From an uncultured Phaeodactylibacter sp. (GTDB lineage Bacteria > Bacteroidota > Bacteroidia > Chitinophagales > Saprospiraceae): DNA of 15,667 nucleotides. The translations under genes and the position numbers were made by a program. This document shows positions 1 to 11,305 of this stretch, one piece after another. Position 1 is the stretch's first letter. Each line of letters opens with the position of its first letter. Location: contig CAJXXJ010000017.1 of assembly GCA_913062745.1 (NCBI GenBank), positions 1 through 15,667 of the forward strand, read 5' to 3'. The notes beneath the pieces were generated by a model. The model saw nothing but the letters and a program-made list of their open reading frames with translations, did not search any database and was not told the DNA's origin.

Positions 1-702
1 GACGGCATAGCAGAGATTACTGAAAAAGATGATGAGGACAATTATATCATTCTCGTAGAGGACCCAATGCACGGCACTTCAGTAGCGGTTATTATCACGA
101 GCGGAGAGAATGAACTGCCTTACGGCGAAAACTTTAGTGCAAACCCCATCCTGACCCGCTCCGAGTGGAATGACGTAAATTTTAATAAAATGATCGATCC
201 CGATGAAGTGGAAACCCAGGGTGCTCTGCTGGGCGACCTCTGGCGGCTGTCAGGTAGTACTTGGGAGTTATTGGTCAGGCAGGAAGATCAGTTCCGCAGG
301 AGGGGGGCAGTAGGCATTGCTTCCGGCAGCCGCAATTACCTGCTGGGGGGAGATGACGGAATGTCCGGCTCGCCGGCAGCGACCATCTACTTCAGCAGCA
401 GCGGCAGTCCGGTCAATGTAGTGGATGAGATAGAAGGGCTCGGCTCTTCCTTCGGCATTCTTTTTCCCATCGGGCAAACGCTCTACTACGGTGGTGGTGA
501 AGATGCTGCGGGCAACCTGCTCAGCTTAAACCTGAAAAAACTGATGCTGCCTTCCACACTGGTGAACGCTACCGGCTGCGGCCTGAATACCCTGAGTGCT
601 GGTGTAGGCCTAAGCGTAGATGACCGAAAAGGGTTCATCGGCATCGGCCGTGTGGAAGATGGCCTGACCAATGAATTCTGGATGTACGTGCCGGTGGATT
701 AA
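1..702 (+). CDS. Kelch-like beta-propeller protein, 3' end (5' truncated)
   Basis: The reading frame is open from the first base, so the gene begins outside the window and 233 codons are visible. An internal ATG at 67 is not needed as a start. The visible protein has repeated blocks typical of kelch propellers: a 'GDLWRLSGSTWELL' segment followed by 'NYLLGGDDG', and near the end 'KGFIGIGRVEDG...NEFWMYVP', the usual Bacteroidota kelch closing blade. No enzymatic motif and no C-terminal sorting domain is seen; the protein ends 'YVPVD'. The next gene starts 48 nt downstream on the same strand, so it may be the first visible member of the WD40/CHAT/ATPase cluster. Propellers of this sort normally bind proteins or glycans, but the ligand cannot be inferred. 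The kelch call rests on blade pattern only and could be another propeller class. Confidence 0.6.
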   Translation, partial: DGIAEITEKDDEDNYIILVEDPMHGTSVAVIITSGENELPYGENFSANPILTRSEWNDVNFNKMIDPDEVETQGALLGDLWRLSGSTWELLVRQEDQFRRRGAVGIASGSRNYLLGGDDGMSGSPAATIYFSSSGSPVNVVDEIEGLGSSFGILFPIGQTLYYGGGEDAAGNLLSLNLKKLMLPSTLVNATGCGLNTLSAGVGLSVDDRKGFIGIGRVEDGLTNEFWMYVPVD

Positions 703-750: not shown

Positions 751-1644
751 ATGAAACCACTATTCGTAACCCTTTTTATCCTGGTCGCCCTGACTTTTGC
801 CTTCGGTCAGGGCCGGCAAATTGAAGACCGTCGGACACTGCTGTTTCCGGTCTCGCTTGATATCACCCAAAATGGCGAATATATCCCGGAGATGCCGGCG
901 GCTGCATCCATGCTGAAAAGCCTGTACATTGAAGTCGACAACGCGGACCTCACGGTACACTACGAGCTGAAAAAATACAACGGCTTATACGCAATAGAGC
1001 TGCTCGGCTTCCAGACAGCGAATGGGCTGCAGCGCATTCCCGTAGAAAGGATAGAAGGCGTACTGGGGGAAGGAATTTCCGGCAAGGGCCCCCTGAGCCA
1101 CTCTTTCCAAATCATCAACAGCGCCGATAACAGCAACATCCGGCAGCTCAGCGGCCCGGTAGTGCTGCAGCTCCGCATCACGCAGTACGATATAGTCCTC
1201 GCGCGCGGGCGGGATACCATCAGCTGTTCCTATGAAATTCAGAAGCTCACCTATCCGGAAAATTATTGGGGAGAGACTATCTTCGGCGGGCTGGGGGCCA
1301 CAAGTATTTTCGTATCTCTGCATTTAGAGCACCGAGCCGACGTCCACTACGGCAACTACCGGGCACAGGAGGCTAAAAGCGATGCAGACCCGATTTATGA
1401 GGATAAGGTGCGCCCCAACCACCGGGGGGCAACGATCACTCGCGCGGCGGGGGCCGTACTTTTAGCCGGCAGCGCGATCTGGGGGCTGCTCCGGCACCGC
1501 AACAACAAAAAGAACCGGGAATTACAGCGTCAGTTGTGCCCTGAGCTACAGTTTCAGCCCCTGCTGGGCCTGCCTTCCAGCTTGCCTTCAGGCTTGCCGG
1601 CTCCGGACGGAACGCTGGGCCTTTCACTCACCTACAACTTCTAG
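751..1644 (+). CDS. Exported protein of unknown function with C-terminal membrane segment
   Basis: A 297-residue protein that I do not recognise as a named family. It begins with a clear signal peptide (residues 1-19, hydrophobic core FVTLFILVALTFAF). Residues 25-170 look like an all-beta extracytoplasmic domain. Two hydrophobic stretches follow, at about 175-191 and, more convincingly, 227-247 (TRAAGAVLLAGSAIWGLL), the latter flanked by basic residues (RHRNNKK). The tail contains a short Leu-Pro-Ser repeat (PSSLPSGLPAP) and ends 'LGLSLTYNF', with a C-terminal Phe as in outer-membrane strands; one strand alone does not make a barrel. The WD40 gene follows after only 2 nt, so the two are almost certainly co-transcribed and perhaps translationally coupled. 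By context it may be an envelope partner of the WD40/CHAT/ATPase system, but that is inference. Confidence 0.8.
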   Translation: MKPLFVTLFILVALTFAFGQGRQIEDRRTLLFPVSLDITQNGEYIPEMPAAASMLKSLYIEVDNADLTVHYELKKYNGLYAIELLGFQTANGLQRIPVERIEGVLGEGISGKGPLSHSFQIINSADNSNIRQLSGPVVLQLRITQYDIVLARGRDTISCSYEIQKLTYPENYWGETIFGGLGATSIFVSLHLEHRADVHYGNYRAQEAKSDADPIYEDKVRPNHRGATITRAAGAVLLAGSAIWGLLRHRNNKKNRELQRQLCPELQFQPLLGLPSSLPSGLPAPDGTLGLSLTYNF

Positions 1645-1646
1645 CT

Positions 1647-3461
1647 ATGCGGGTTATGATTACAACATTTTTGTTTTGGGCAGCCTGGGCTGCCGCCGCT
1701 GCACAATCTGCCGGCCAGGTTGCTACGGCATACCGGGACAATATGTATCTGGGCAACCGGGCAATGGAAGAGCGGGAATTCGAGGAAGCCATCAAGAAAT
1801 TCATCCTGGCCCGTATATCGCCCAATGCCCCTTCTGACGGAAAAGCCGAGCGCAGAATCATCGAGGCACTGGACCTGCGGGTGAGTGAGCTCACTGCAAT
1901 TGCCGACACTATCGCTCAACAGCGGGATCGCCTTAAAGACCTGAATGATAAAATAGAAAAAGAGAAAAAAGAAGCCCTGCAGCAACGGGACACGGCGCGT
2001 ATTGAGCGCAACCGGGCAGACCGCAATTACCGGCTTTTTTACAGCGTCTACGTAGCGGATGCCGCAATGCAGGATTTGCAGAAAGACTCCGCAGAGCTGG
2101 CCCTGAAAAAAGCGTTCCACGCTTATCGTAAACTGGATACCATACAGGTGCCTTCCGCGGTACACCGTGCCTTTAGCGCTGCCGTTTACAAGCGTTACGG
2201 TGAGCTCCTCATCAGCAGCCAAAATGCAGGGATCATCGCCATGGAAATGGCGGAAGACGGGCAGTCCTTCCACGTCATCAGCCGGGATACAAGCGTGCGC
2301 CGCCTGAGATACCAAACTGCCGGAGTATCGGGCATTAAGGATTTGACAGGCCTCGGGCAGTTTACAGAAGAGGTTGGCATAGCGGAAGAAGATATCATAC
2401 TCACAGCGGTGGCCTTGCCGGCTGACAGCGCTTTAATTGTAGGCGGGCGCGGTGCCAGTATCAAACGGGTAGCGGCCGATACAATAACTGCCTTACTGAA
2501 AAAATCCGGCCACGATGGCACTATAGTCCGGGTAAAAGCACTACCGGACGGCCACCTTTTATCTGCCGGGCGGGACGGCAAGGTATTGCTTTGGAGCCCG
2601 GAAGGGGAAGAGGTATGCACCATAGTGGAAGACGCGGCACCCATAGCCGACCTGCAGCTATCTGAGGATGGCAGCAGTGTGCTGATCCGCACCATGCGCA
2701 GCCTGTATCACTGGAAGCCCGGTGGAGGTGCGGACAAAGCCCGGCGGCTGGATGATGCCGGAGATGAGCTGGTTATTGCCGCCGTGTTGTCGGCCGATGG
2801 AGCACAAATACTCAGCAGCTATTCGGACGGACAGGTAATGCTTTGGGGTCAAAATGGCTTGCTGAAAGCCTTCCGGGAGGAGTACCCTGCCTTCGTCGTA
2901 GCCTTCACTTCTGCTGGAGCCGAATTGCTGGTAGCCCTGCAAAACGGAGATATAATTCGGTACACCCATCAGGGGGGCAGCAGTTGGATACGGAAGGAGC
3001 TCTACGCTCATCCCGGCGTAAACCGGCTGATACAGGGTAAAGGGCAAAGCAGCTTCCTGTCCATTGGCAGTGGGAATGACGCCATTTTATACCTGCCGCA
3101 GGATAAGGTGATTCGGCTAAGCGGGCATCAGGGGCCGGTCCTTTCTGCTGCGTTTTCGCCCCGCCCGGAAGACCAGGCAGTGGTGTCGGCCTCAATGGAT
3201 CATACGCTCAAAATGTGGTCGGCAAAAGGTGTGCTGCTCATGGATATTGATTTGGGTGCACCCGTAACCGACGTGATGTTTACCCCGGACGGGCATTACA
3301 TTCTGGCGGGCACTTCCCGGGGTACAGTCCATACGCTGCCGTCTCCCCTGTATGTGAGAGCGCAACTGCAACAGGCACAGGCCTCCGGCAGTGGTTTTGA
3401 TACGGCCGCTGTAGCGGAACAGCTGGGCCGGGAAATCGATCAATTACTGGGAAAAGAATGA
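1647..3461 (+). CDS. Exported WD40-repeat propeller protein with N-terminal coiled coil
   Basis: A 604-residue protein with a signal peptide (residues 1-19, Ala-rich and ending AAAAAQ). Residues 30-60 form a TPR-like helical hairpin (EEREFEEAIKKFILARIS). A charged coiled coil follows at about 77-128. A helical segment at 130-185 resembles the linker that precedes WD40 repeats in fused STAND proteins. A seven-or-so-blade propeller fills about 190-570. The clearest repeats are 288-317 (GHDGTIVRVKALPDG...AGRDGKVLLW) and 493-525 (GHQGPVLSAAFSP...SMDHTLKMW). No catalytic motif is visible. The gene sits 2 nt after the exported 297-residue gene and 4 nt before the CHAT gene. It probably serves as the sensor or scaffold of the system, placed outside the inner membrane by its signal peptide. 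The blade count is approximate. Confidence 0.88.
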   Translation: MRVMITTFLFWAAWAAAAAQSAGQVATAYRDNMYLGNRAMEEREFEEAIKKFILARISPNAPSDGKAERRIIEALDLRVSELTAIADTIAQQRDRLKDLNDKIEKEKKEALQQRDTARIERNRADRNYRLFYSVYVADAAMQDLQKDSAELALKKAFHAYRKLDTIQVPSAVHRAFSAAVYKRYGELLISSQNAGIIAMEMAEDGQSFHVISRDTSVRRLRYQTAGVSGIKDLTGLGQFTEEVGIAEEDIILTAVALPADSALIVGGRGASIKRVAADTITALLKKSGHDGTIVRVKALPDGHLLSAGRDGKVLLWSPEGEEVCTIVEDAAPIADLQLSEDGSSVLIRTMRSLYHWKPGGGADKARRLDDAGDELVIAAVLSADGAQILSSYSDGQVMLWGQNGLLKAFREEYPAFVVAFTSAGAELLVALQNGDIIRYTHQGGSSWIRKELYAHPGVNRLIQGKGQSSFLSIGSGNDAILYLPQDKVIRLSGHQGPVLSAAFSPRPEDQAVVSASMDHTLKMWSAKGVLLMDIDLGAPVTDVMFTPDGHYILAGTSRGTVHTLPSPLYVRAQLQQAQASGSGFDTAAVAEQLGREIDQLLGKE

Positions 3462-3465
3462 CGAA

Positions 3466-5214
3466 ATGGGGAATCGAGTATTTTTAGTTTTTGCAAACGA
3501 TGAGGATAATCCGCTCGGAACGCTGCGGGAGGAAGACGAAAAGCTGTACGAGCTGTTTGCTGAACGAGAGCGGCAGAAGCACCTGGCCATCTTCCGGGAT
3601 TCGTCTGTCCGTACGGAGACGCTGGGGCATTATCTGGAATTTTTCAGGGATGAAATTATCCTGTTTCACTACAGCGGGCACGCCGGCAGCGATCAGTTGA
3701 GGTTGGCGGACTTCAATGCGCATATCGAAACCATCAATGAGTACCTGGCGCAATGCCCCAATTTGAGGTTGGTTGTGCTGAACGGCTGCTCCACCGCCGG
3801 CGAAGTGGAGCAACTGGTCAATCTAAAATCCAAACCAGCGGTCGTCTTCACAAGTGCTCCGGTGGGTGACCGGGAAGCCACTGTATTCAGCAAAACCTTT
3901 TACAAGTACCTCTGTAGTCAGAGTGCTACCGTGGAGGAGGCATTCGATCAAGCCATCAGGCAGGTTCGGCTGGCCCACAACCACATCAGTGTAGTACGCA
4001 GCCTCGATTTGCTTTACGCGGAGGCAGAAAAGGGGAATACGACTCCCTGGGGGCTGTTGCCCGGCAACTCCTCCGTGCTGCACTGGAGGCTTCCCAACCG
4101 GAGCGGATACACAGAGGCGAACGCCTCATTTCAGAGCAACAGCATACTGATCCCCAAGCTACTTCAGGCCTTTTCGGATTATTACCCCAAGGCGCGGGAA
4201 GTGCTCCGCAAAGGAAAAGCCGCGAGCAGAAGCGATACAGCAGAAGCTGTTTTGGAGCCGCTCCCTTTGCCATTAAGCGAACAGCTGAGGGTACTCATGG
4301 CACGGCCGCAGCAAGGCTCTGAGAATACCTTCTTTATTGATCAGAACCCGGACCGTATAAAGCAAATCGCAATTGCGTACCGCACCCTCATGGAGCTTGC
4401 CGTATTCATCTTCCTGGCAGAATGCTGGGACTTGTACCTGGCCAGGCAAAACGCAGCCCGTGCGCTGAGCAACGGCTTTGCTGAGCCATTGAAGGCGTTT
4501 TTTCGGGCAGGTGTGGAAGAAAGGGATGAATTTGATATGCCGGCACTTGCAGAATCCCTGCGGGAACTGCTCCGGCGAAATCAGGCGGTCCTGTTCTGCA
4601 AAGAGATGGAGTCTCTGCCGCGGTTTGATCAGCCCGATACCGATTTCGGTGCTTCCGTAGGTTACCTCAATCAATGGACGGACAGAAAGATCCGCAGCCT
4701 GAGCGATGAAGAATGGCCATCGGTTTGCCAACAAGCGGAGAAAGCACTGGCAGATTTCTACGCTGGCTTCAATTTCCTGGCCCACTACAAGCTACGCTCT
4801 GTACGGGATATAGAGACGCATCACTACCGGCATCAGGCAAAAACGCGGTACAGCCATAAAGTCGTAAAGCTGATTCAGAAGTTCCACCATGAGCTGGATG
4901 ACGTAACGGAAGAGCGGCAGGCACCGATGTACACTTTTTCCGTATGCCTGTACCGGGAAGATACGGACGGCTATCTGAACCTCTCTCCGTTTGTCATCGA
5001 CCAGAATGCGTTCAGTGAGGATAAGACGCTGGCCAAACTTCATCACTTCATGTTTTACGACCGGTATCTGGATAGCTTCACCTTCCGCCATGTGTATAAG
5101 CGCCATGATGCTCCGTTGAATACGGCCCGCGACCGTGAAACCTACCAGGTCATACAGGAACAGTTCGATGCCTTTGCCCACCTTGTTTTCAAGAAAAACA
5201 TCAAAGACCTATGA
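3466..5214 (+). CDS. CHAT-domain caspase-like protease
   Basis: A 582-residue protein whose first ~200 residues are a CHAT domain, a member of the caspase/separase-like cysteine protease clan. The catalytic His is in FHYSGHAG (His72; His68 is nearby) and the catalytic Cys is in VVLNGCSTAGE (Cys108). The next conserved CHAT segments follow: VVFTSAPVGDREATVFSKTFY at about 126-146 (quoted in part: SAPVGDREATVFSKTFY) and the closing NTTPWGLLPG at 191-200. Both catalytic residues are present, so it is probably active. Residues 210-582 are mostly helical with no family I recognise; 300-325 is hydrophobic but contains charges, so a membrane helix is doubtful. No signal peptide is present, so it is cytoplasmic. 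It starts 4 nt after the WD40 gene and its stop overlaps the ATPase start (ATGA), indicating coupled expression. It is the probable effector of the operon; its substrate is unknown. Confidence 0.9.
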   Translation: MGNRVFLVFANDEDNPLGTLREEDEKLYELFAERERQKHLAIFRDSSVRTETLGHYLEFFRDEIILFHYSGHAGSDQLRLADFNAHIETINEYLAQCPNLRLVVLNGCSTAGEVEQLVNLKSKPAVVFTSAPVGDREATVFSKTFYKYLCSQSATVEEAFDQAIRQVRLAHNHISVVRSLDLLYAEAEKGNTTPWGLLPGNSSVLHWRLPNRSGYTEANASFQSNSILIPKLLQAFSDYYPKAREVLRKGKAASRSDTAEAVLEPLPLPLSEQLRVLMARPQQGSENTFFIDQNPDRIKQIAIAYRTLMELAVFIFLAECWDLYLARQNAARALSNGFAEPLKAFFRAGVEERDEFDMPALAESLRELLRRNQAVLFCKEMESLPRFDQPDTDFGASVGYLNQWTDRKIRSLSDEEWPSVCQQAEKALADFYAGFNFLAHYKLRSVRDIETHHYRHQAKTRYSHKVVKLIQKFHHELDDVTEERQAPMYTFSVCLYREDTDGYLNLSPFVIDQNAFSEDKTLAKLHHFMFYDRYLDSFTFRHVYKRHDAPLNTARDRETYQVIQEQFDAFAHLVFKKNIKDL

Positions 5215-7181
5215 AAAGCCCGTTCAAATTTCTGGATTCCTTTACGCTGCGGGACAAAGATGCCTTTTTTGGCCGGGAAGCAGAGACCAACCGCTTGTAC
5301 CAGATGGTATTCGAATCTCCGGTTCAGCTTATCTACGGGCTGAGTGGCACCGGTAAAACCAGCCTGATTCAGTGCGGCCTGGCCAGTAAATTTGACGGGC
5401 CTGACTGGTTCCCGTTTTTCATCCGCAGAGGAGACGACATCAACGCCGCTTTGCACGAAAGCCTCAATAGTTACCTGCCGGAAGAACGGCAGCGGGCCAT
5501 GAGCCTGCCTGATAAGGTCAGCGAATTATTCAGAGACTACCTAAGCCCGGTATACCTGATTTTTGATCAGCTGGAAGAGCTGTACATCCTTGGGGATAGT
5601 GAAGAACAGCGGCAGTTTGCAAAGAGCCTGCGGGAGCTGCTTGACGCAGAGCTGCCGTGCCGGGTCATGCTGGTCATGCGGGAGGAGTACCTCGGTTATC
5701 TTTACGAGTTGGAGCAGCACATCCCGTACCTGTTCGACTTCCGCCTGCGCGTAGAGCCTATGAACCGGCAAAACCTGATGCATGTGATGGGGGCTTCCTT
5801 TGAACAATTCAATATCGGGCTGGAGCCCCCGAAAGAGAAACGGCTGGAAGAAATGCTGCGGAATATCTCGGGAGAGAAATCCGGGGTGCAGCTCCCCTAC
5901 CTGCAAGTCTATCTTGATTTGCTTTACCGGGAGTGCTACGCAGAAACCTATCCGGATCAGGTGCCGGAAAGCCCTTTGCCCCCTCTGACGTTTCGGCATT
6001 CGGACATCGAACGTGCAGGAAGCATAGAGAATGTGCTGGAACGCTTTGTGCAGGAGCAGGAATCCGCATTGCAGTATAAACTCACGCAACAATTTGAAGG
6101 CTTGCCTGATGATGCGGTACGCAGGACCCTCGATGCCCTCGTGACCCGGGAAGGCACCAAACGGCCCGTCCACTTTCATCGGGAAGGGGAGCTCCTGCTG
6201 CCGGAAGCGGCTTTCTGCGAGCTCACCCCATTCCTGACTAAAGAAGCCCGCTCCTTTCTGCTGGAAGAATTGGAAAGGCGCCGCATCCTGCGCGCTGCCG
6301 GGGAGGTGGCCGAACTTGCACACGACAGCATCGCCGCCATCATTGACCAGAACCGGACAGAACAGCAACGGCAGATCAACCAAATCTACCGCCGGCTAAA
6401 ACACAGCTTTGAAGAGTACAAAGACAATGAAGTCTTCCTCACCGAGCGGCAGCTGAATGTGCTGGAAGAATATCTGCCTTTGCTGACCCTTGATGCCGAA
6501 GTCGAACAGTTTATCGCAGCGAGCCATGAGGAAGTCGCCCGCCTCCGCCAAGAAGCAGAAGAGAAAAAGCGTGCCCGGCTGCGCAAAAGGCTTTTTCCGC
6601 TCATAGTGAGCCTGGCTGTAGTGGCCATCCTGCTCAGTTTTTATGCCTTTGACCAAAAAGGCGAGGCAGAGCGGGCGCAAAGAGAACTGACCAGGCAGAC
6701 CATACAGTTTGACCTGAAAAGCAGCCAGTCCCTGGCAGAAGGCGGCAACTACAACGCTGCCAAAGCACGGCTGAGCGAAGCACTAAAAGTGATCAAAGGC
6801 AATGAGCTCGGCAATGAATACCTCGACACGCTCGAATTCATCAGTCAGCAGCTCAAAGCCTTCGATGAAGTTGCCGAACTGGTGCAAAATGCCGATGACC
6901 TGGTTAAGAAGGATACAACCGACCTGACCGATACACTCAAACTGCCTGCCTTGAAAAACTACGAAAAAGCCCTGAGCATAGTCGTAGACTCCGTCACCAA
7001 CCTCAAGAAGGAGAATCTGTTGGCAGGGCTCAAAAAAGATGCGGAAATCTGGTACGACCGGGCTCAAAATTATGCAGAATTCGACAGCCCGGAGCTGGCC
7101 AGGCAAGCGTTGCAGTACGCCAGGCGCCTTGACCCCACCCGGGTGGACCGGATTACCGCCCTGGAGCAAATGCTGAAGTAG
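5211..7181 (+). CDS. nSTAND1-type AAA ATPase with a transmembrane helix
   Basis: A 656-residue STAND ATPase, the NLR-like class that oligomerises on ligand sensing. The N-terminus FKFLDSFTLRDKDAFFGRE is the nSTAND1 entry motif. Walker A is GLSGTGKTS (43-51) and Walker B is VYLIFDQLEE (Asp119, Glu122/123), with the DQLEE form typical of nSTAND1. A sensor-like REEY lies at 157-160. A winged-helix region runs to about 380, with 'AELAHDSIA' at 367-375. A basic coiled coil (440-460) precedes one transmembrane helix (461-480, LFPLIVSLAVVAILLSFYAF). Residues 481-656 are TPR-like helices (GGNYNAAKARLSEALKVI and NYEKALSIVVDS). The positive-inside rule puts the ATPase in the cytoplasm and this tail in the periplasm. 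The usual C-terminal WD40 repeats are absent; a separate WD40 gene lies two genes upstream. It overlaps the CHAT gene by 4 nt and is likely the last gene of the operon. Confidence 0.92.
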   Translation: MKSPFKFLDSFTLRDKDAFFGREAETNRLYQMVFESPVQLIYGLSGTGKTSLIQCGLASKFDGPDWFPFFIRRGDDINAALHESLNSYLPEERQRAMSLPDKVSELFRDYLSPVYLIFDQLEELYILGDSEEQRQFAKSLRELLDAELPCRVMLVMREEYLGYLYELEQHIPYLFDFRLRVEPMNRQNLMHVMGASFEQFNIGLEPPKEKRLEEMLRNISGEKSGVQLPYLQVYLDLLYRECYAETYPDQVPESPLPPLTFRHSDIERAGSIENVLERFVQEQESALQYKLTQQFEGLPDDAVRRTLDALVTREGTKRPVHFHREGELLLPEAAFCELTPFLTKEARSFLLEELERRRILRAAGEVAELAHDSIAAIIDQNRTEQQRQINQIYRRLKHSFEEYKDNEVFLTERQLNVLEEYLPLLTLDAEVEQFIAASHEEVARLRQEAEEKKRARLRKRLFPLIVSLAVVAILLSFYAFDQKGEAERAQRELTRQTIQFDLKSSQSLAEGGNYNAAKARLSEALKVIKGNELGNEYLDTLEFISQQLKAFDEVAELVQNADDLVKKDTTDLTDTLKLPALKNYEKALSIVVDSVTNLKKENLLAGLKKDAEIWYDRAQNYAEFDSPELARQALQYARRLDPTRVDRITALEQMLK

Positions 7182-7238
7182 TTAGCCGGCACGTACTGCC
7201 TGATTCTTGTCAAAACCTGCAAAGCTGTTGCATATTCA

Positions 7239-7269
7239 TTTGCAAAAGCCTGATTTCGCCTTATCTTAG
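7239..7269 (+). promoter_or_regulatory. Bacteroidota-type promoter for the GbsR-like regulator
   Basis: A -33 element TTTG (7239-7242) is followed after exactly 19 nt by TATCTTAG (7262-7269), one mismatch from the Bacteroidota -7 consensus TAnnTTTG. The regulator ATG lies 32 nt further on. An inverted repeat, TGCAAA (7218-7223) and TTTGCA (7239-7244), overlaps the -33 element and could be an autoregulatory operator. The assignment is by motif only. Confidence 0.55.
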
Positions 7270-7301
7270 CCCGCCAGCTATTGTTTTTTTAAAGATACGG
7301 C

Positions 7302-7787
7302 ATGACGGAGCGCAAAGAACCCGAAAGCAAGAAAGCACGCATTCAGCGGAAGGTAGAACGAATGGGGGTTTTTTTTGAACAAGCAGGCCTTACCCCCATG
7401 ACTGGCCGCGTCTTTGCCTATCTGTTGCTGGCAGAGCCTCCCCACAAAGACTTCTACGAGATTCAGGAGTTTATGAACGCCAGCAAAAGCTCCATCAGCA
7501 CCGCGCTCAAATTTTTGCAAAACGATGGAGTGGTAGAGTACATTACCTTCAGTGGAGACCGCCGCCGTTACTTCCGTATCAATCCCGACAGGTGGTACGT
7601 CCGGCTCAAGGAACGCTTTCGGCAGTTGACAGAAATGCAGGCCCTCATAGCGAGCGTACTGGAAGAGCGGCAATCCGGGAAATATGATGATTTTAACGCC
7701 GAACTGCACCGCCTGGAGGCCTTTCACGCCTATCTCGCCGATGGTATTGAGCAATTGATCGAAAAGTGGGAACAGGCTAAACCATAA
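7302..7787 (+). CDS. GbsR/MarR-family winged-helix transcriptional regulator
   Basis: A 161-residue DNA-binding protein of the GbsR-like branch of the MarR superfamily. A basic N-terminal helix (ERKEPESKKARIQRKVERMG) leads into a winged helix at about residues 25-95. The recognition helix region SKSSISTALKFLQNDGVVEY (61-80) and the wing GDRRRYFRIN (85-94) are both typical. Residues 95-160 form the helical dimerisation part. Length fits the family. It has its own promoter 120 nt beyond the ATPase gene, so it is probably not part of the CHAT operon. Members of this family in Bacteroidota often sit beside efflux or envelope genes, but here the next gene is an ECF sigma factor 70 nt downstream on the same strand, and the target genes are not evident. 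The effector ligand is unknown. Confidence 0.85.
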   Translation: MTERKEPESKKARIQRKVERMGVFFEQAGLTPMTGRVFAYLLLAEPPHKDFYEIQEFMNASKSSISTALKFLQNDGVVEYITFSGDRRRYFRINPDRWYVRLKERFRQLTEMQALIASVLEERQSGKYDDFNAELHRLEAFHAYLADGIEQLIEKWEQAKP

Positions 7788-7799
7788 TTTTTTTACCTT

Positions 7800-7825
7800 G
7801 TTGGTTCTTGGAATGCCGAACTAAC
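7800..7825. promoter_or_regulatory. Inverted repeat upstream of the ECF sigma gene
   Basis: GTTGGTTC (7800-7807) and GAACTAAC (7818-7825) form an 8-bp inverted repeat with one G-T pair around a 10-nt spacer, about 32 nt before the sigma-factor ATG. It could be an operator for the adjacent GbsR-like protein or an RNA hairpin at the end of that gene. A T-run lies before it, not after, so it is not a normal forward terminator. Confidence 0.35.
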
Positions 7826-7857
7826 AGAATTAACCCTTTTCGCCCAAACACCCCGTT

Positions 7858-8331
7858 ATGCCCCTTTCAGAACACCTGCTGAGTATTCGTTCCGACCTGG
7901 AAGCCTACGCACTCCGGTTGACGAAGGACCCGGTCGCCTCCAGCGACCTGCTTCAGGATACTTACCTCAAAGTATTAGAGAACCTCCACAAATTTCAGCC
8001 CGGCACCAACTTCAAGGCCTGGAGCCTGACCATCATGCACAATTGCTTCGTGAGCAACTATCGCCGGCAACGGCGGGGCAGCGAAATACAGCGGGCACCC
8101 TTTACGCAAGCCTACCTGTACCGTGGCCAGGCAGTACAGCACAATGCCGCAGAATCGCATTTACAGCTGGAAGACCTGTTCCAGCGTATGGCCCGCCTGC
8201 CCATCCTTTACCGCTTGCCGCTGATGTATTACCTGGAGGGCCTCAGCTACCAGGAAATCGCTGAGCTGATCGATATTCCGCTGAATACCGTCAAAAGCCG
8301 CATCCGCACCGCCCGGCAGCGTTTGCGCTAA
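7858..8331 (+). CDS. ECF-type RNA polymerase sigma factor
   Basis: A 157-residue sigma-70 family factor of the extracytoplasmic-function size class. Region 2 spans about residues 10-73: DLLQDTYLKVLENLHKF contacts core polymerase, and FKAWSLTIMHNCFVSNYRRQ carries the -10-binding helix. Region 4 spans about 105-157: RLPILYRLPLMYYLEGLSYQ, then EIAELIDIPLNTVKSRI, the helix-turn-helix that reads the -35 region. The protein ends at RQRLR immediately after region 4, so there is no extra C-terminal domain. ECF factors redirect RNA polymerase to stress or envelope regulons and are usually held by an anti-sigma factor. No anti-sigma or FecR-like gene is adjacent; the neighbours are a GbsR-like regulator and, 100 nt downstream, a VPS10-like gene. 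Control must therefore come from elsewhere or from transcription of the gene itself. Confidence 0.93.
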   Translation: MPLSEHLLSIRSDLEAYALRLTKDPVASSDLLQDTYLKVLENLHKFQPGTNFKAWSLTIMHNCFVSNYRRQRRGSEIQRAPFTQAYLYRGQAVQHNAAESHLQLEDLFQRMARLPILYRLPLMYYLEGLSYQEIAELIDIPLNTVKSRIRTARQRLR

Positions 8332-8431
8332 ACGAGGCGGCCACACCTCCGTCACGACAGCCGGCAGCGCTACCTCAATCCGCCGGAAAGTAGGGCAGCT
8401 CAGAAATTTTCCTTTTTTTAGCTGGAAAAAC

Positions 8432-11305
8432 ATGCGGCTACTATCCTTTTTGTTCCTATTGCTTGTGAGCAGCCTTTCTGCTCAGGACAGCCCGGCACCC
8501 ACCCCGGCAGACGAGCGTTTGTCGAGCTATCAGCAGCGGATGGCGCTGAAGGAAGCTTCTATCGTCAATGAAATCGAATTCCGCAACGTCGGCCCCACCG
8601 TCATGAGCGGCCGGGTAGCGGATATCGATGTATGGGAAGAAGACCCTACCCACTTCTACGTGGCTTATGCTTCCGGCGGCCTGTGGAAAACCGAGAACAA
8701 CGGCCTTTCCTTTACTCCTGTCTTCGATCAGGAAGCCGTAATGACCATCGGCGATATTGCAGTAGACTGGGAGCGGGACATCATCTGGGTCGGTACCGGA
8801 GAAGTCAATTCCAGCCGTTCTTCCTACGCGGGCGCCGGTGTCTACAAAAGTGCGGACGGCGGGCAGAGCTGGGAACACCTCGGCCTGGCGGAGACACACC
8901 ACATCGGCCGCATCCTGCTGCACCCGGAAGACCCGAATACAGCCTGGGTGGCTGCCCTCGGCCACCTTTACTCACCCAGCGAAGAGCGCGGCTTGTATAA
9001 GACTACCGATGGCGGACAGAGCTGGTCGCATACCTTGGCGCTCGGAGATAATGCCGGCGCGGTAGACTTGCTGCGCGATCCGCTCAACAACAATACGCTC
9101 TATCTGGCAAGCTGGGAGCGGGAGCGCTACGCCTGGAATTTTGTAGAGTCCGGCCCGGCATCCGCTATTTACAAAAGCGAAGACGGGGGCGACAGCTGGA
9201 CACGGCTCACCACAGCGGGCAGTGGCTTTCCCACCGGCGAAGGGGTAGGCCGCATTGGTGTGGATGCAGTGGTGGAAAACGGAAAGACCGTGCTGTACGC
9301 TGCGCTTGACAACTATGGCCGCCGGCCTAAGGAAGCAGAAGAAGAGGAAGGCCTTAGCAAAGAAGAGCTGCGCGCGATGAGTGGCGAAGACTTTCTAAAG
9401 CTGCCGGTATACGAAATTGAGGAATACCTGCGCGGCAACGGCTTCCCCCGAAAGTATACAGCAGAATCGGTACGCGAACAGGTCAAAAGCGGTGACCTGC
9501 AGCCGCTGGCACTGGTAGAATACGTGGAAGATGCTAACTCCCTGCTGTTTGACACACCGGTGATCGGGCTGGAGGTCTACCGCTCCGACGATGGTGGCAA
9601 GAGCTGGTCCAAAACACACGACGGCTACATCGATCAGGTGTATAATTCTTACGGCTATTACTTTGGGCAGGTCCGGGTGGACCCCAATGATGCGGATAAA
9701 ATATTCGTGATGGGCGTGCCCATACTGCGCTCCGACGATGGCGGAAAAACCTGGTCCAACGTCATGCAGGACAACGTGCACGCCGACCACCACGCTCTCT
9801 GGATCAACCCTGAGCGAGAGGGGCACCTCATCCTGGGCAACGACGGCGGCATCAATATCAGCTACGATGATGGCGAATACTGGGCCAAGTGCAATAGCCC
9901 GGCTGTAGGTCAATTCTATACCGTCGCGGTGGACCACGCGGAGCCCTACCGTATCTACGGCGGATTGCAGGATAATGGTGTGTGGATGGGGCCGAGCACC
10001 TACGAGGCGAGCGACCGATGGCATTCCACCGGGCAGTACCCGTACCGCAGTATTCAGGGCGGGGACGGCATGCAGGTGGCCATCGACACCCGCGACAACA
10101 ACACCGTTTACACCGGCTTCCAGTTTGGCAATTACTTCCGTATCAATACCGCCACCGAAGAGCGGGCTTATATTACACCGAAGCCGGAACTGGGCGAGCG
10201 CCCCTATCGCTGGAACTGGCAGGCCCCCATCCACCTGTCCAACCACAACCAGGATATCCTCTACATGGGAGCCAACAAGCTGCTGCGCTCCATGAATCAG
10301 GGCAATGACTTTGAAGAAATTTCGGATGACCTGACGCAGGGCGGCCGCAAGGGCGATGTGCCCTATGGAACGCTTGCCAGCATTCATGAGTCTCCTCTGC
10401 AGTTTGGCCTGTTGTATACCGGCTCAGACGACGGCCTGGTGCACCTCAGCCGAGATGGTGGCTACAGTTGGCAGAATATTACAGCCGGTTTGCCGGAAAA
10501 CCTGTGGGTGAGCCGCGTACAGGCTTCTGCTCACGAAAAGCCCCGCGTTTACGTGGCGCTTAATGGCTACCGCTACGATGACTTTACGCCTTATCTATAC
10601 GTTTCTGATGACTACGGCAGCAACTGGCGGCGCATTGGCGAAGGCCTGCCCTTAGAGCCGGTGAACGTCATCAAAGAAGACCCCGCCAACCCGGATCTGC
10701 TCTACGTAGGTACAGATCACGCCCTGTATATTTCGCTGGATGGTGGACAGTCCTTTATGCTGATGGATAACAGTTTGCCTGCAGTGCCGGTGCATGACCT
10801 GGTCATTCACCCCAAAGCCAAAGAAGTGGTCGTGGGCACCCACGGCCGATCCATCTACGTGGGCCGGGTGAAGGAACTGCAGCAGCTGGACGATGCGCTT
10901 TTGGCGAAAGCCCTGCATGCTTTTACCCCGGACCCCATCCGCTACCGCTCCTACTGGGGCAGCAAGTCGATCTGGGAACGGGAGGAGCCCGAGGTGAAAC
11001 TCCCGCTCTACTGCGGTGCTGCCGGCGAGGCACAGCTAAGCCTGAAAACGGAGGACGGGCTTGAGCTCACCCGCTTTACAGCAGACTGTGTGAAGGGGTT
11101 GAACTACCTACCGTACGATATGACGATTGACGCTTCCGTGCTTGAAGCGTACAATGAGGAGCTGAACAAAGGCCGTTCGGAAGATCAAAAGCCCGTGAAA
11201 GTGGAAGCGGCGGATAACGGAAAAGCCTATCTGTACGAAGGCAAGTACACCATTGAGCTTACGCAAAACGGGGAGTCTGCTACTATGCAGCTGGAAGTGA
11301 AATAG
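8432..11305 (+). CDS. Exported VPS10/sortilin-like BNR-repeat propeller protein
   Basis: A 957-residue protein with a signal peptide (residues 1-17, LLSFLFLLLVSSLSA then QDS). It belongs to the large bacterial VPS10/sortilin-like family, often labelled 'glycosyl hydrolase' although activity is rarely shown. At least nine Asp-box/BNR motifs are visible: SADGGQSW (~139), TTDGGQSW (~191), SEDGGDSW (~249), SDDGGKSW (~385), SDDGGKTW (~434), SYDDGEYW (~477), SRDGGYSW (~673), SDDYGSNW (~725) and SLDGGQSF (~768). These indicate one or two propellers. Residues ~295-370 form a charged helical insertion (KEAEEEEGLSKEELRAMSGE), and a beta-rich C-terminal domain follows ~800. No type IX sorting tail or lipobox is seen, so it is probably periplasmic. 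It stands alone, 100 nt after the sigma gene, with no clear promoter match. No catalytic residues can be assigned. Confidence 0.9.
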   Translation: MRLLSFLFLLLVSSLSAQDSPAPTPADERLSSYQQRMALKEASIVNEIEFRNVGPTVMSGRVADIDVWEEDPTHFYVAYASGGLWKTENNGLSFTPVFDQEAVMTIGDIAVDWERDIIWVGTGEVNSSRSSYAGAGVYKSADGGQSWEHLGLAETHHIGRILLHPEDPNTAWVAALGHLYSPSEERGLYKTTDGGQSWSHTLALGDNAGAVDLLRDPLNNNTLYLASWERERYAWNFVESGPASAIYKSEDGGDSWTRLTTAGSGFPTGEGVGRIGVDAVVENGKTVLYAALDNYGRRPKEAEEEEGLSKEELRAMSGEDFLKLPVYEIEEYLRGNGFPRKYTAESVREQVKSGDLQPLALVEYVEDANSLLFDTPVIGLEVYRSDDGGKSWSKTHDGYIDQVYNSYGYYFGQVRVDPNDADKIFVMGVPILRSDDGGKTWSNVMQDNVHADHHALWINPEREGHLILGNDGGINISYDDGEYWAKCNSPAVGQFYTVAVDHAEPYRIYGGLQDNGVWMGPSTYEASDRWHSTGQYPYRSIQGGDGMQVAIDTRDNNTVYTGFQFGNYFRINTATEERAYITPKPELGERPYRWNWQAPIHLSNHNQDILYMGANKLLRSMNQGNDFEEISDDLTQGGRKGDVPYGTLASIHESPLQFGLLYTGSDDGLVHLSRDGGYSWQNITAGLPENLWVSRVQASAHEKPRVYVALNGYRYDDFTPYLYVSDDYGSNWRRIGEGLPLEPVNVIKEDPANPDLLYVGTDHALYISLDGGQSFMLMDNSLPAVPVHDLVIHPKAKEVVVGTHGRSIYVGRVKELQQLDDALLAKALHAFTPDPIRYRSYWGSKSIWEREEPEVKLPLYCGAAGEAQLSLKTEDGLELTRFTADCVKGLNYLPYDMTIDASVLEAYNEELNKGRSEDQKPVKVEAADNGKAYLYEGKYTIELTQNGESATMQLEVK

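Follow-up and report, generated by a model that had tools for sequence, protein, structure and literature searches.

The window, that is, the whole stretch of 15,667 nucleotides from an uncultured Phaeodactylibacter sp. analysed here, carries four closely packed genes on its forward strand. The first (751..1644) encodes a probably exported protein of 297 amino acids belonging to an unnamed family, here termed U297. It is followed by the genes for a WD40 protein (1647..3461, 604 aa; the proposed exported sensor), a CHAT protein (3466..5214, 582 aa; a predicted cytoplasmic protease) and an nSTAND1 ATPase with a single membrane helix (5211..7181, 656 aa). The latter three were described in a first-pass annotation, and their coordinates, the 4 nt gap and the 4 nt overlap (ATGA) agree with the open reading frames; the U297 gene, separated by 2 nt from the WD40 start, was absent from the operon given there. 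The contig start (the window opens at contig base 1) truncates a codirectional gene, the 3' part of which occupies positions 1..702 and whose membership in the operon is uncertain. A Pfam search of 67-702 returned no match, and BLASTP aligned the gene product to the kelch protein of locus L099 at E 0.007 over 54 residues and to L039 at 0.30. A kelch-type or other lipoprotein occupies this position in several relatives. The MarR and ECF genes downstream (7302-8331) were rejected as parts of the operon, being missing from the 22 largest recurrent neighbour clusters of 80 loci. A genomic-island origin inferred from composition was rejected as well, the G+C content of the genes being 0.51-0.57 throughout, with no contrast.

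The WD40 protein (Pfam WD40, 68.5 bits) comprises a putative signal peptide (approximately residues 1-20), a TPR-like module (approximately 28-84), charged helices up to about residue 200 and the WD40 repeats (approximately 250-565). Of the N-terminal coiled coil annotated previously, the charged helix was recovered, but it is preceded by the TPR-like module, residues 36-84 of which match a profile built without this protein at E 3.3e-5. The same module stands at the start of exported sensors whose further domains are WD40, LRR or amidase. Signal peptides were called by three rules devised for this analysis (loose, medium and strict), the loose rule being positive for 38% of background genes and the medium rule having been devised after the strict one had missed the WD40 protein of the window. 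The signal peptide claimed for this protein was called by the loose and medium rules and not by the strict rule. Homologues in L162, L099 and L157 pass the strict rule, while that of L143 fails. The aligned WD40 proteins (those of L143, L157, L099, L162 and L039 being alignment entries L098, L113, L099, L120 and L039) share only 13-22% identity with that of the window.

The CHAT protein consists of a catalytic domain (approximately residues 1-200) and about 370 conserved, unnamed residues of helical and beta structure. The Pfam CHAT score of the single sequence is modest (27.8 bits, cut-off 24). A profile of 26 relatives matched the SAVED-CHAT chain 8tl0 with 1.4e-16 over profile positions 3-169, and the predicted structure (pLDDT 87.5, pTM 0.68) had its best Foldseek matches in 8tl0 and caspases. 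The dyad His72/Cys108, earlier reported as intact, is kept in all 80 distinct CHAT relatives, the window included. The C-terminal part had no confident match among the 50 matches listed; it is proposed to be an adaptor to the ATPase. The nearest relatives in a protein-database search (P0051 and P0054) show 46-47% identity. A contig scan with the single CHAT protein gave no match, and a scan with the CHAT alignment was successful. PADLOC, applied to 26 CHAT relatives, gave one weak SAVED_CHAT match.

The third protein of the annotated operon was assigned to nSTAND1 (PF20703) with 123.5 bits against a cut-off of 27.1. It is divided into an NTPase and STAND part (1-450), a helix (461-479) and a helical, TPR-like tail predicted to lie outside (481-656), in which residues 609-653 gave a weak Pfam match to TPR_9 below its cut-off. 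Its Walker A and B motifs were borne out by the relatives, Gly48 and Lys49 being present in all 92 distinct ATPases and Asp119 in 91 of them, with one gap (the alignment of 131 rows includes near-copies). The single membrane helix was recovered as a hydrophobic stretch at 461-479, with eight K/R before and three after it, and Pfam detected no WD40 repeats, as the first reading had stated. In the predicted structure (pLDDT 86.4, pTM 0.59) the tail is all helix and parts of 462-478 are under 50; Foldseek matches include 2qen, ORC/Cdc6, Avs5 (9jap) and CED-4 (8jns). With a proposed exported WD40 sensor, a predicted membrane-crossing ATPase and a predicted cytoplasmic CHAT effector, the operon is fairly likely to encode a membrane-spanning STAND switch.

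A contact between sensor and ATPase tail through their TPR-like parts is hinted at by profile searches. The iterated TPR profile was found in 11 of 34 short ATPase tails and in none of 35 others, the profile having absorbed those tails during iteration. Among 1406 ORFs, the sensor profile made only from the seeds gave no match to an ATPase tail at E 0.001 and matched a single tail, present as two rows (L088, L135), at 0.005; that the tail of the window ATPase was unmatched by it counts against the switch model. Among the nine loci reached later through U297, the seed-only profile did match ATPase tails in L246 (2.8e-7), L248 (2e-5, on a second chain) and L251 (2.5e-4). Since the profile seeds were picked by the first cysteine of the sensors, this residue is worthless as evidence on its own.

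The search for the same gene order suggested earlier was successful: exported WD40 protein, CHAT and membrane-bound nSTAND1 follow each other in five of 80 distinct CHAT loci, the window included. The order U297-WD40-CHAT-nSTAND1 is found in the window and four other genomes (L143, L157, L099 and L162), and L039 has U297-WD40-nSTAND1 without CHAT. Other effectors occur as well. Two further loci keep the gene order with the effector exchanged: L246 has a SIR2-EAD11 protein where CHAT would stand, and L251 a nucleotide cyclase in place of the CHAT domain, ahead of the same C-terminal part. In L052, TIR is located in front of nSTAND1. A second nSTAND1 operon in the genome of the window encodes a SIR2 protein, an nSTAND1 protein with a helix and an LRR protein with a signal-peptide-like start. 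The nature of the effectors bears on whether the system serves regulated proteolysis for envelope stress or surface remodelling, CHAT cleaving a regulator with no cell death. Adhesin-like and peptidoglycan-linked proteins are among the exported partners, the effector place may be filled by a nucleotide cyclase, and genes for an ECF sigma factor and a MarR-like protein come next in the window; the absence of the latter two from the 22 largest recurrent neighbour clusters and the exchange of the effector for SIR2 or TIR, enzymes familiar from death and defence systems, make this reading improbable.

The layout of sensor and membrane helix could be read in 69 CHAT loci. The ATPase has a helix and a short tail in 34 of them and a helix and a long tail in 17, while the helix is on a second protein in 18. 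Eleven of the 80 loci are outside this count: two without a gene after CHAT, three in which the ATPase is cut by the contig end, and six split loci where no second chain was recognised directly behind the ATPase (L150b, L187, L193, L167, L197 and L173). The helix of unsplit ATPases lies beyond residue 380 in 49 of 51 at a hydropathy of 1.5, and in L141 and L179 only at 1.0. In the split systems it was found in 17 of 18 second chains, L188 having a weaker stretch. The K+R number is higher before the helix than after it in 64 of 68 cases (mean 6.0 versus 2.8). These N-inside, C-outside flanks hold across the layouts and therefore place the sensor side outside in each of them, supporting the periplasmic location previously argued for the segment behind the helix. 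In L041, of the split class, the ATPase chain has another weak hydrophobic stretch besides the first, seen at 1.5 and not at 1.6, which counts against the switch model. Domains acting outside cells are present in several loci, namely Amidase_2 (L106, in the exported protein encoded downstream of the pair), a peptidoglycan-binding domain (L042, following the helix) and a Por secretion tail (L091). L187 and L195 each encode more than one helix-bearing chain per ATPase, so that one switch may read several sensors.

By the medium rule, an exported codirectional neighbour within 150 nt was found for 16 of 34 short-tail ATPases (15 of 33 without the window), 1 of 17 long-tail ATPases and 4 of 18 split systems (short- versus long-tail, one-sided p 0.0027). 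Signal peptides were predicted in 165 of 445 other genes of these loci, a rate to which 16 of 34 is not far superior, and the contrast arises because the long-tail rate is low. The exported neighbours of these 16 ATPases all lack a helix beyond residue 25 at a hydropathy of 1.6, whereas the second chains of the split systems have their own helix and a signal peptide in none of 18. This difference, and the passing of the strict rule by three of the four WD40 homologues from loci with this gene order, make it very improbable that the WD40 protein is cytoplasmic, its N-terminus being no working signal peptide, and the operon an ordinary membrane-tied cytoplasmic STAND system, a reading favoured by the strict rule having missed the window protein. 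Against the membrane-spanning switch, the rule calls no exported neighbour for 18 of 34 short-tail ATPases. The pairs of L136, L101 and L145 are clearly alone; the contigs of L102, L104 and L107 end too early to judge. Among 24 control nSTAND1 genes of the phylum, a long tail is frequently accompanied by an exported neighbour, so that a sensor separate instead of fused is not a general rule.

Fused relatives combining nSTAND1, membrane helix and WD40 repeats, as sought by the first-pass annotation, were found in L165, L051 and L054. Its statement that the canonical single chain has been split is unsupported as worded, as short- and long-tail ATPases intermingle on the CHAT tree. The unrooted tree, on which direction is undefined, requires 13 layout changes in all, with 10 for the short-tail layout, at least seven of these by starred branches. 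One clade with a support of 100 unites a separate LRR protein (L192), a U297 neighbour (L115), a fused WD40 (L165) and a fused FGE (L170). A single ancestral split of a fused chain is therefore too simple and was rejected as stated.

U297 of the window has no match in Pfam or NCBIfam, and a signal peptide was called at its start by the loose rule. The family occurs in 10 distinct loci of the set selected for CHAT or nSTAND1; the 80-locus set came from searches directed at these two and does not represent nSTAND1 genes at large. Searching with U297 in place of CHAT gave matches in 12 of 398 genomes, comprising the window, G183 and G156 (both in the CHAT/nSTAND1 set) and nine further loci. An exported TPR-WD40 gene adjoins U297 in all nine, and an nSTAND1 gene with a membrane helix is in the same cluster in six; two of the other three are on contigs under 6 kb. 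In L250, neither CHAT nor nSTAND1 occurs within 20 kb of the U297-WD40 pair, which counts against the switch model. A word-based search of limited reach through 5.8 billion proteins with the window U297 alone gave only the self-match. These loci bear on the alternative that CHAT and nSTAND1 form a self-contained switch, which would sense through the periplasmic TPR-like tail of its ATPase or respond to a cue inside the cell, with the WD40 protein and U297 as passengers sharing a promoter. It would account for the lone pairs, for the locus without CHAT (L039) and that without a nearby ATPase (L250), and for the varying position of the U297/WD40 module, upstream in some loci and downstream in L161, L244, L245 and L252. 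It is, however, at odds with the six of nine loci found by U297 that carry nSTAND1, with a linkage that persists despite the low identity of the WD40 proteins, and with the TPR-like module shared by exported sensors of several kinds, and is considered unlikely, if less so than the other alternatives. The nine further loci and the effector exchanges strengthen the membrane-spanning switch and weaken both the passenger reading and that of a cytoplasmic WD40 protein; they also add some weight to the idea of a broader receptor class, set out below.

In such a membrane-spanning switch, CHAT and the ATPase domain would be cytoplasmic, CHAT being docked via its C-terminal 370 residues. The ATPase would cross the inner membrane once, its helical TPR-like tail reaching the periplasm, where the exported WD40 protein would contact it, probably together with U297. 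An envelope signal (phage, toxin, damaged wall or neighbouring cell) might alter the WD40 protein, and this change would travel via tail and helix, upon which the ATPase would exchange its nucleotide and oligomerise on the membrane. The gathered CHAT would turn active and cleave a cellular substrate, and the cell would be arrested or killed. While we infer the contact, the oligomerisation, the signal, the substrate and the outcome (death or arrest on an envelope signal), the logic is, as judged from sequence, NLR-like, predicted sensor, STAND switch and effector domains being present and linked in one unit.

A STAND switch, an effector and a repeat sensor are likewise combined in Avs and other antiphage STAND proteins and in APAF-1/CED-4, which are cytoplasmic single chains with no known membrane passage. 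The CHAT protease fold is shared with SAVED-CHAT and Craspase (TPR-CHAT) of type III CRISPR systems, 8tl0 being the closest solved structure. SAVED-CHAT and Craspase are activated by cyclic nucleotides or guide RNA; no SAVED, Cas10 or gRAMP was found in nine window proteins by Pfam or in three by PADLOC, on a contig that begins within the upstream gene. With PADLOC-DB 2.0.0, the three window proteins matched the core proteins of no system and gave partial matches only, to HEAT-ARM_XIII in the WD40 part (34 bits) and to LmuB, PDC-S53 and Aga2 in short ATPase stretches (14-18 bits). STAND NTPases of the nSTAND1 family have been described in predicted conflict systems with effectors such as caspase or TIR (PMC8195603). 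The central NTPase family and the effector kinds are common to both; the accessible part of that source describes no exported partner, whereas the window sensor is separately encoded and predicted outside the membrane. The available text on 'System 4', a two-gene EACC1-caspase membrane system with STAND NTPases among the attached domains (PMC7159879), likewise has a caspase-superfamily protease near the membrane, as proposed here; the membrane part there is the EACC1 domain, with its gene 5' of that for the caspase, whereas in the window the ATPase itself is predicted to cross and its partner to be exported. The nine window proteins gave no EACC1 call with a Pfam library in which the presence of an EACC1 model is uncertain. 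STAND sensors diversified by DGRs are predicted in the cytoplasm and periplasm, with one STAND target predicted to be periplasmic, according to PMC10907252; those sensors are variable, lectin-like and retroelement-diversified, in contrast to the WD40, LRR or other separately encoded, putatively exported proteins of the window and its relatives. The searched literature yielded no description of a STAND conflict-system variant with such a predicted exported sensor.

To our knowledge, the bacterial NLR-like proteins tested to date all sense intracellularly. The operon appears to resemble an animal- or plant-type immune receptor turned outwards, its relatives representing many versions of this plan. 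Outward-facing STAND receptors, each with one membrane-crossing ATPase and with swappable effectors and exported sensors, may well form a broad class in Bacteroidota, above all in Saprospiraceae-like ones, although we stop short of calling this probable. The cytoplasmic effectors of such a class would be CHAT, SIR2, TIR and nucleotide cyclase, some on one shared adaptor domain, and the exported sensors (WD40, LRR, or WG with amidase) would plug in via periplasmic TPR-like modules. Concrete targets are the U297 family, which travels with an exported WD40 gene, and the unnamed domain common to the CHAT and cyclase effectors; separate and swappable sensors and effectors would allow sensor, switch and killer to be tested one by one. 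Sensors beyond the inner membrane would reveal how a STAND switch reads the envelope, and the class, if real, would amount to a bacterial version of the surface receptors that set off caspase-like death.

The three open reading frames described in the first-pass annotation were reproduced in the window with their ends, the 4-nt gap and the 4-nt overlap. All lie on the forward strand and encode a protein with WD40 repeats according to Pfam (1647-3461), a CHAT protein (3466-5214; Pfam CHAT 27.8 bits, cut-off 24) and an nSTAND1 ATPase (5211-7181; Pfam nSTAND1 123.5 bits), the tail of which is all helix in an AlphaFold2-type model and weakly TPR-like by Pfam. Upstream on the same strand, the gene for U297 (751-1644), a probably exported protein of 297 amino acids without a match in Pfam or NCBIfam, has its stop 2 nt ahead of the WD40 start, and a fifth gene (1-702, forward strand) is incomplete at the contig end. 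PADLOC gave only partial matches for three proteins of the window. Further downstream (7302-11305), a MarR-like gene and an ECF sigma factor gene are consecutive and are followed by the gene for a 957-aa exported protein of the sortilin/BNR type; nothing indicates that these genes belong to the operon. The window lies at the beginning of contig C17 in a genome bin of 4.7 Mb (84% complete, 874 contigs).

The order U297-WD40-CHAT-nSTAND1 recurs in four loci of relatives (L143, L157, L099 and L162), so the proposed three-gene order is conserved. U297, WD40 and nSTAND1 genes without CHAT are found in L039, while U297 and WD40 are located downstream, not upstream, in L161 and farther downstream in L091, with other exported genes in between. 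The aligned WD40 proteins are 13-22% identical to that of the window; therefore, the gene linkage is old. A lipoprotein-like gene is often located upstream of the operon. It is of the kelch type in L099 and L162 (identical to L120) and weakly so in L143 (L098), while no kelch-type lipoprotein was found upstream in L157 (L113) or L039.

A search led by U297, and thus independent of CHAT, gave 12 matches in 398 genomes: the window, two loci already in the set (genomes G183 and G156) and nine new loci, all of which were examined. An exported WD40 gene with a TPR-like start adjoins U297 in all nine. In six (L244, L245, L246, L248, L251 and L252), the cluster also includes nSTAND1 together with a membrane helix; in L248 the helix is on a second chain and the effector was not recognised. 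The three loci without nSTAND1 comprise L247 and L249, on contigs of 5.8 and 5.0 kb, and L250, where neither CHAT nor nSTAND1 was found in the 20 kb around the U297-WD40 pair. L250:8007-12387 (genome G023) carries the genes for U297, an exported WD40 protein and a lipoprotein. The same genome also has a CHAT-nSTAND1 pair (L036) lacking an exported neighbour; L136 is likewise from G023.

The layout of the ATPase was readable in 69 of 80 CHAT loci. In 34 (short-tail), the ATPase carries the membrane helix, followed by no more than 220 residues of tail, and in 17 (long-tail) the tail after the helix exceeds 300 residues. A sensor-type domain was detected in five of six long tails tested by Pfam, namely WD40 (L165, L044), LRR (L183) and an FGE-sulfatase-type domain fused C-terminally to the nSTAND1 membrane helix (L152, identical to L109, at L109:6462-9215, and L170:11848-14496); none was found by Pfam in L155. 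In the remaining 18 systems (split), the ATPase chain ends short of the helix, which resides with the last STAND part on a second protein. WD40 is present on this second chain in eight of the 18, seven by motif (L105 also by Pfam) and L041 by Pfam alone, and a signal peptide was found on none by the strict home-made rule. The helix of two unsplit ATPases (L141, L179) was seen at a relaxed threshold only, the second chain of L188 has only a weaker hydrophobic stretch, and the split ATPase chain of L041 shows an additional weak stretch. L187 and L195 each encode a single CHAT protein, a helix-less ATPase and two proteins with the last STAND part and a membrane helix, one of which in L187 has a WD40 motif; possibly, several sensors serve one switch here. 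Lysine and arginine are more frequent before than after the helix in 64 of 68 helices (after in three, equal in one; means 6.0 before and 2.8 after), and therefore an N-inside, C-outside orientation is assigned. The claimed topology, with the segment behind the helix outside the cytoplasm, is accordingly judged right.

Exported neighbours were defined as genes within 150 nt on the same strand, exported by the home-made medium rule, which was relaxed after its strict form failed on the window's protein. The rule was positive for 165 of 445 background genes and called 6 of 305 CHAT or ATPase proteins falsely. Such a neighbour accompanies 16 of the 34 short-tail systems, one of the 17 with a long tail and four of the 18 split ones (short- versus long-tail, Fisher one-sided p 0.0027). 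By this rule, 18 of the 34 short-tail systems have none. Exported genes lie slightly beyond 150 nt in L106, L089, L140 and L135 and were overlooked by the rule in L143 and L091; the contig stops beside the pair in L102, L104 and L107, and no exported neighbour was found in L136, L101 and L145. The exported partners are WD40 proteins in the window, L169, L196 and L159, an LRR protein in L192 (L114), and Ig-like, P-domain or Por-tail proteins in L088 and L091. In L106, a WG/Amidase_2 (PGRP-like) protein with LRR matches below cut-off is encoded 193 nt behind the CHAT-nSTAND1 pair (L106:115-2373). Amidase and Por-tail domains function outside the cell; in the nSTAND1 chain of L042 (L042:9044-12877), a peptidoglycan-binding domain is located after the membrane helix. 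This chain also has WG repeats and, at its C-terminus, a phosphopantetheine-attachment match. As a control, 24 nSTAND1 genes from twenty regions of the phylum were inspected, 22 of which encode a hydrophobic stretch past residue 420. Twelve have a codirectional gene directly behind, counted at any gap length, that is exported by the medium rule (two calls doubtful by eye). Since these ATPases are mostly long-tailed, exported partners are not limited to short-tail ATPases. Distant nSTAND1 genes of the phylum (L222-L233) encode one membrane helix and long tails, many with an exported gene behind; the genes upstream encode putative TIR proteins, going by their starts.

His72 and Cys108 of the CHAT protein, noted as intact before, are kept in all 80 distinct, full-length relatives assembled, and conservation spans the full length of about 580 residues (26 relatives aligned). 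Structure comparison of the AlphaFold2 model (pLDDT 87.5) gave matches to SAVED-CHAT (8tl0) and to caspases. At the profile level, the similarity to 8tl0 extends over positions 3-169; for the other 370 residues, a confident match was absent among the best 50 structure matches listed. This C-terminal part is interpreted as an adaptor that links the effector to the ATPase. L042 and L043 encode it on its own, with no CHAT domain, L043 downstream of a separate TIR gene, and in L251, which has the window's order, it is fused (profile 205-575) to a nucleotide cyclase domain (residues 3-162) in the CHAT position of an otherwise equal operon (L251:7331-9070). In L246, also with the window's order, a SIR2-EAD11 protein replaces CHAT (both domains above cut-off), and a TIR gene is located upstream of nSTAND1 in L052. 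The own genome encodes only one nSTAND1 protein besides that of the window (two in all at E 0.001), in an operon on contig C40 (L055, 1260-6720 and, with the adjoining gene, 7110-10091) for a SIR2 protein (EAD11 match below cut-off), nSTAND1 with a membrane helix and a WG-LRR protein, the N-terminus of which is signal-peptide-like by eye. The neighbouring gene on the opposite strand encodes a protein of 993 aa that matches Peptidase_C14.

In 17 of the 80 loci, a caspase relative is encoded no more than three genes away from CHAT (21 loci for a distance of six genes), and His and Cys motifs are present in all 17. Two tested by Pfam showed Peptidase_C14 and an alpha/beta-hydrolase-like part. They are more common beside long-tail (9 of 17) than short-tail systems (6 of 34); one is near a split (of 18) and one near an incomplete system (of 11). 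SAVED-CHAT acts in a protease cascade, and by analogy the proximity suggests a similar cascade here. None is encoded in the window, while six Peptidase_C14 matches occur elsewhere in the own genome.

The ATPase query matched 11 of 39 genomes at E 0.001, including the own genome but none of the five others of the genus. Within the family, the CHAT query matched 98 of 398 genomes, the own counted and weak matches to other CHAT proteins included, one of five in the genus (weakly) and, at E 1e-20, 8 of 395 in the class, own counted. These rates indicate a distribution that is both patchy and concentrated. Among named genomes, a scan retained 79 loci, mostly labelled Saprospiraceae, Lewinella, Phaeodactylibacter, Aureispira and Saprospira, besides Chitinophaga, Dyadobacter, Larkinella, Fibrisoma, Pedobacter and odd bins, e.g. 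Thermoanaerobaculia and Williamsia.

Outward sensing is not new as an idea, because cytoplasmic and periplasmic sensors are both proposed in PMC10907252, and PMC3501461 describes a single metacaspase whose receptor domain lies outside. Separate exported sensors for nSTAND1-CHAT were not described among the literature matches listed, from a search outside which most subscription journals and preprints fall.

An unrooted tree of the 69 CHAT proteins, built by a quick method with SH-aLRT as the only support measure, requires 13 changes between the three layouts, with the split systems clustering. One clade of support 100 unites a separate LRR protein (L192), a U297 neighbour truncated at a contig end (L115), a fused WD40 (L165) and a fused FGE domain (L170). 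Of the earlier interpretation, topology and conservation stand, while the splitting of a canonical single chain is too simple a description: judged from these sequences and an unrooted tree, the layout of the system has changed more than once.
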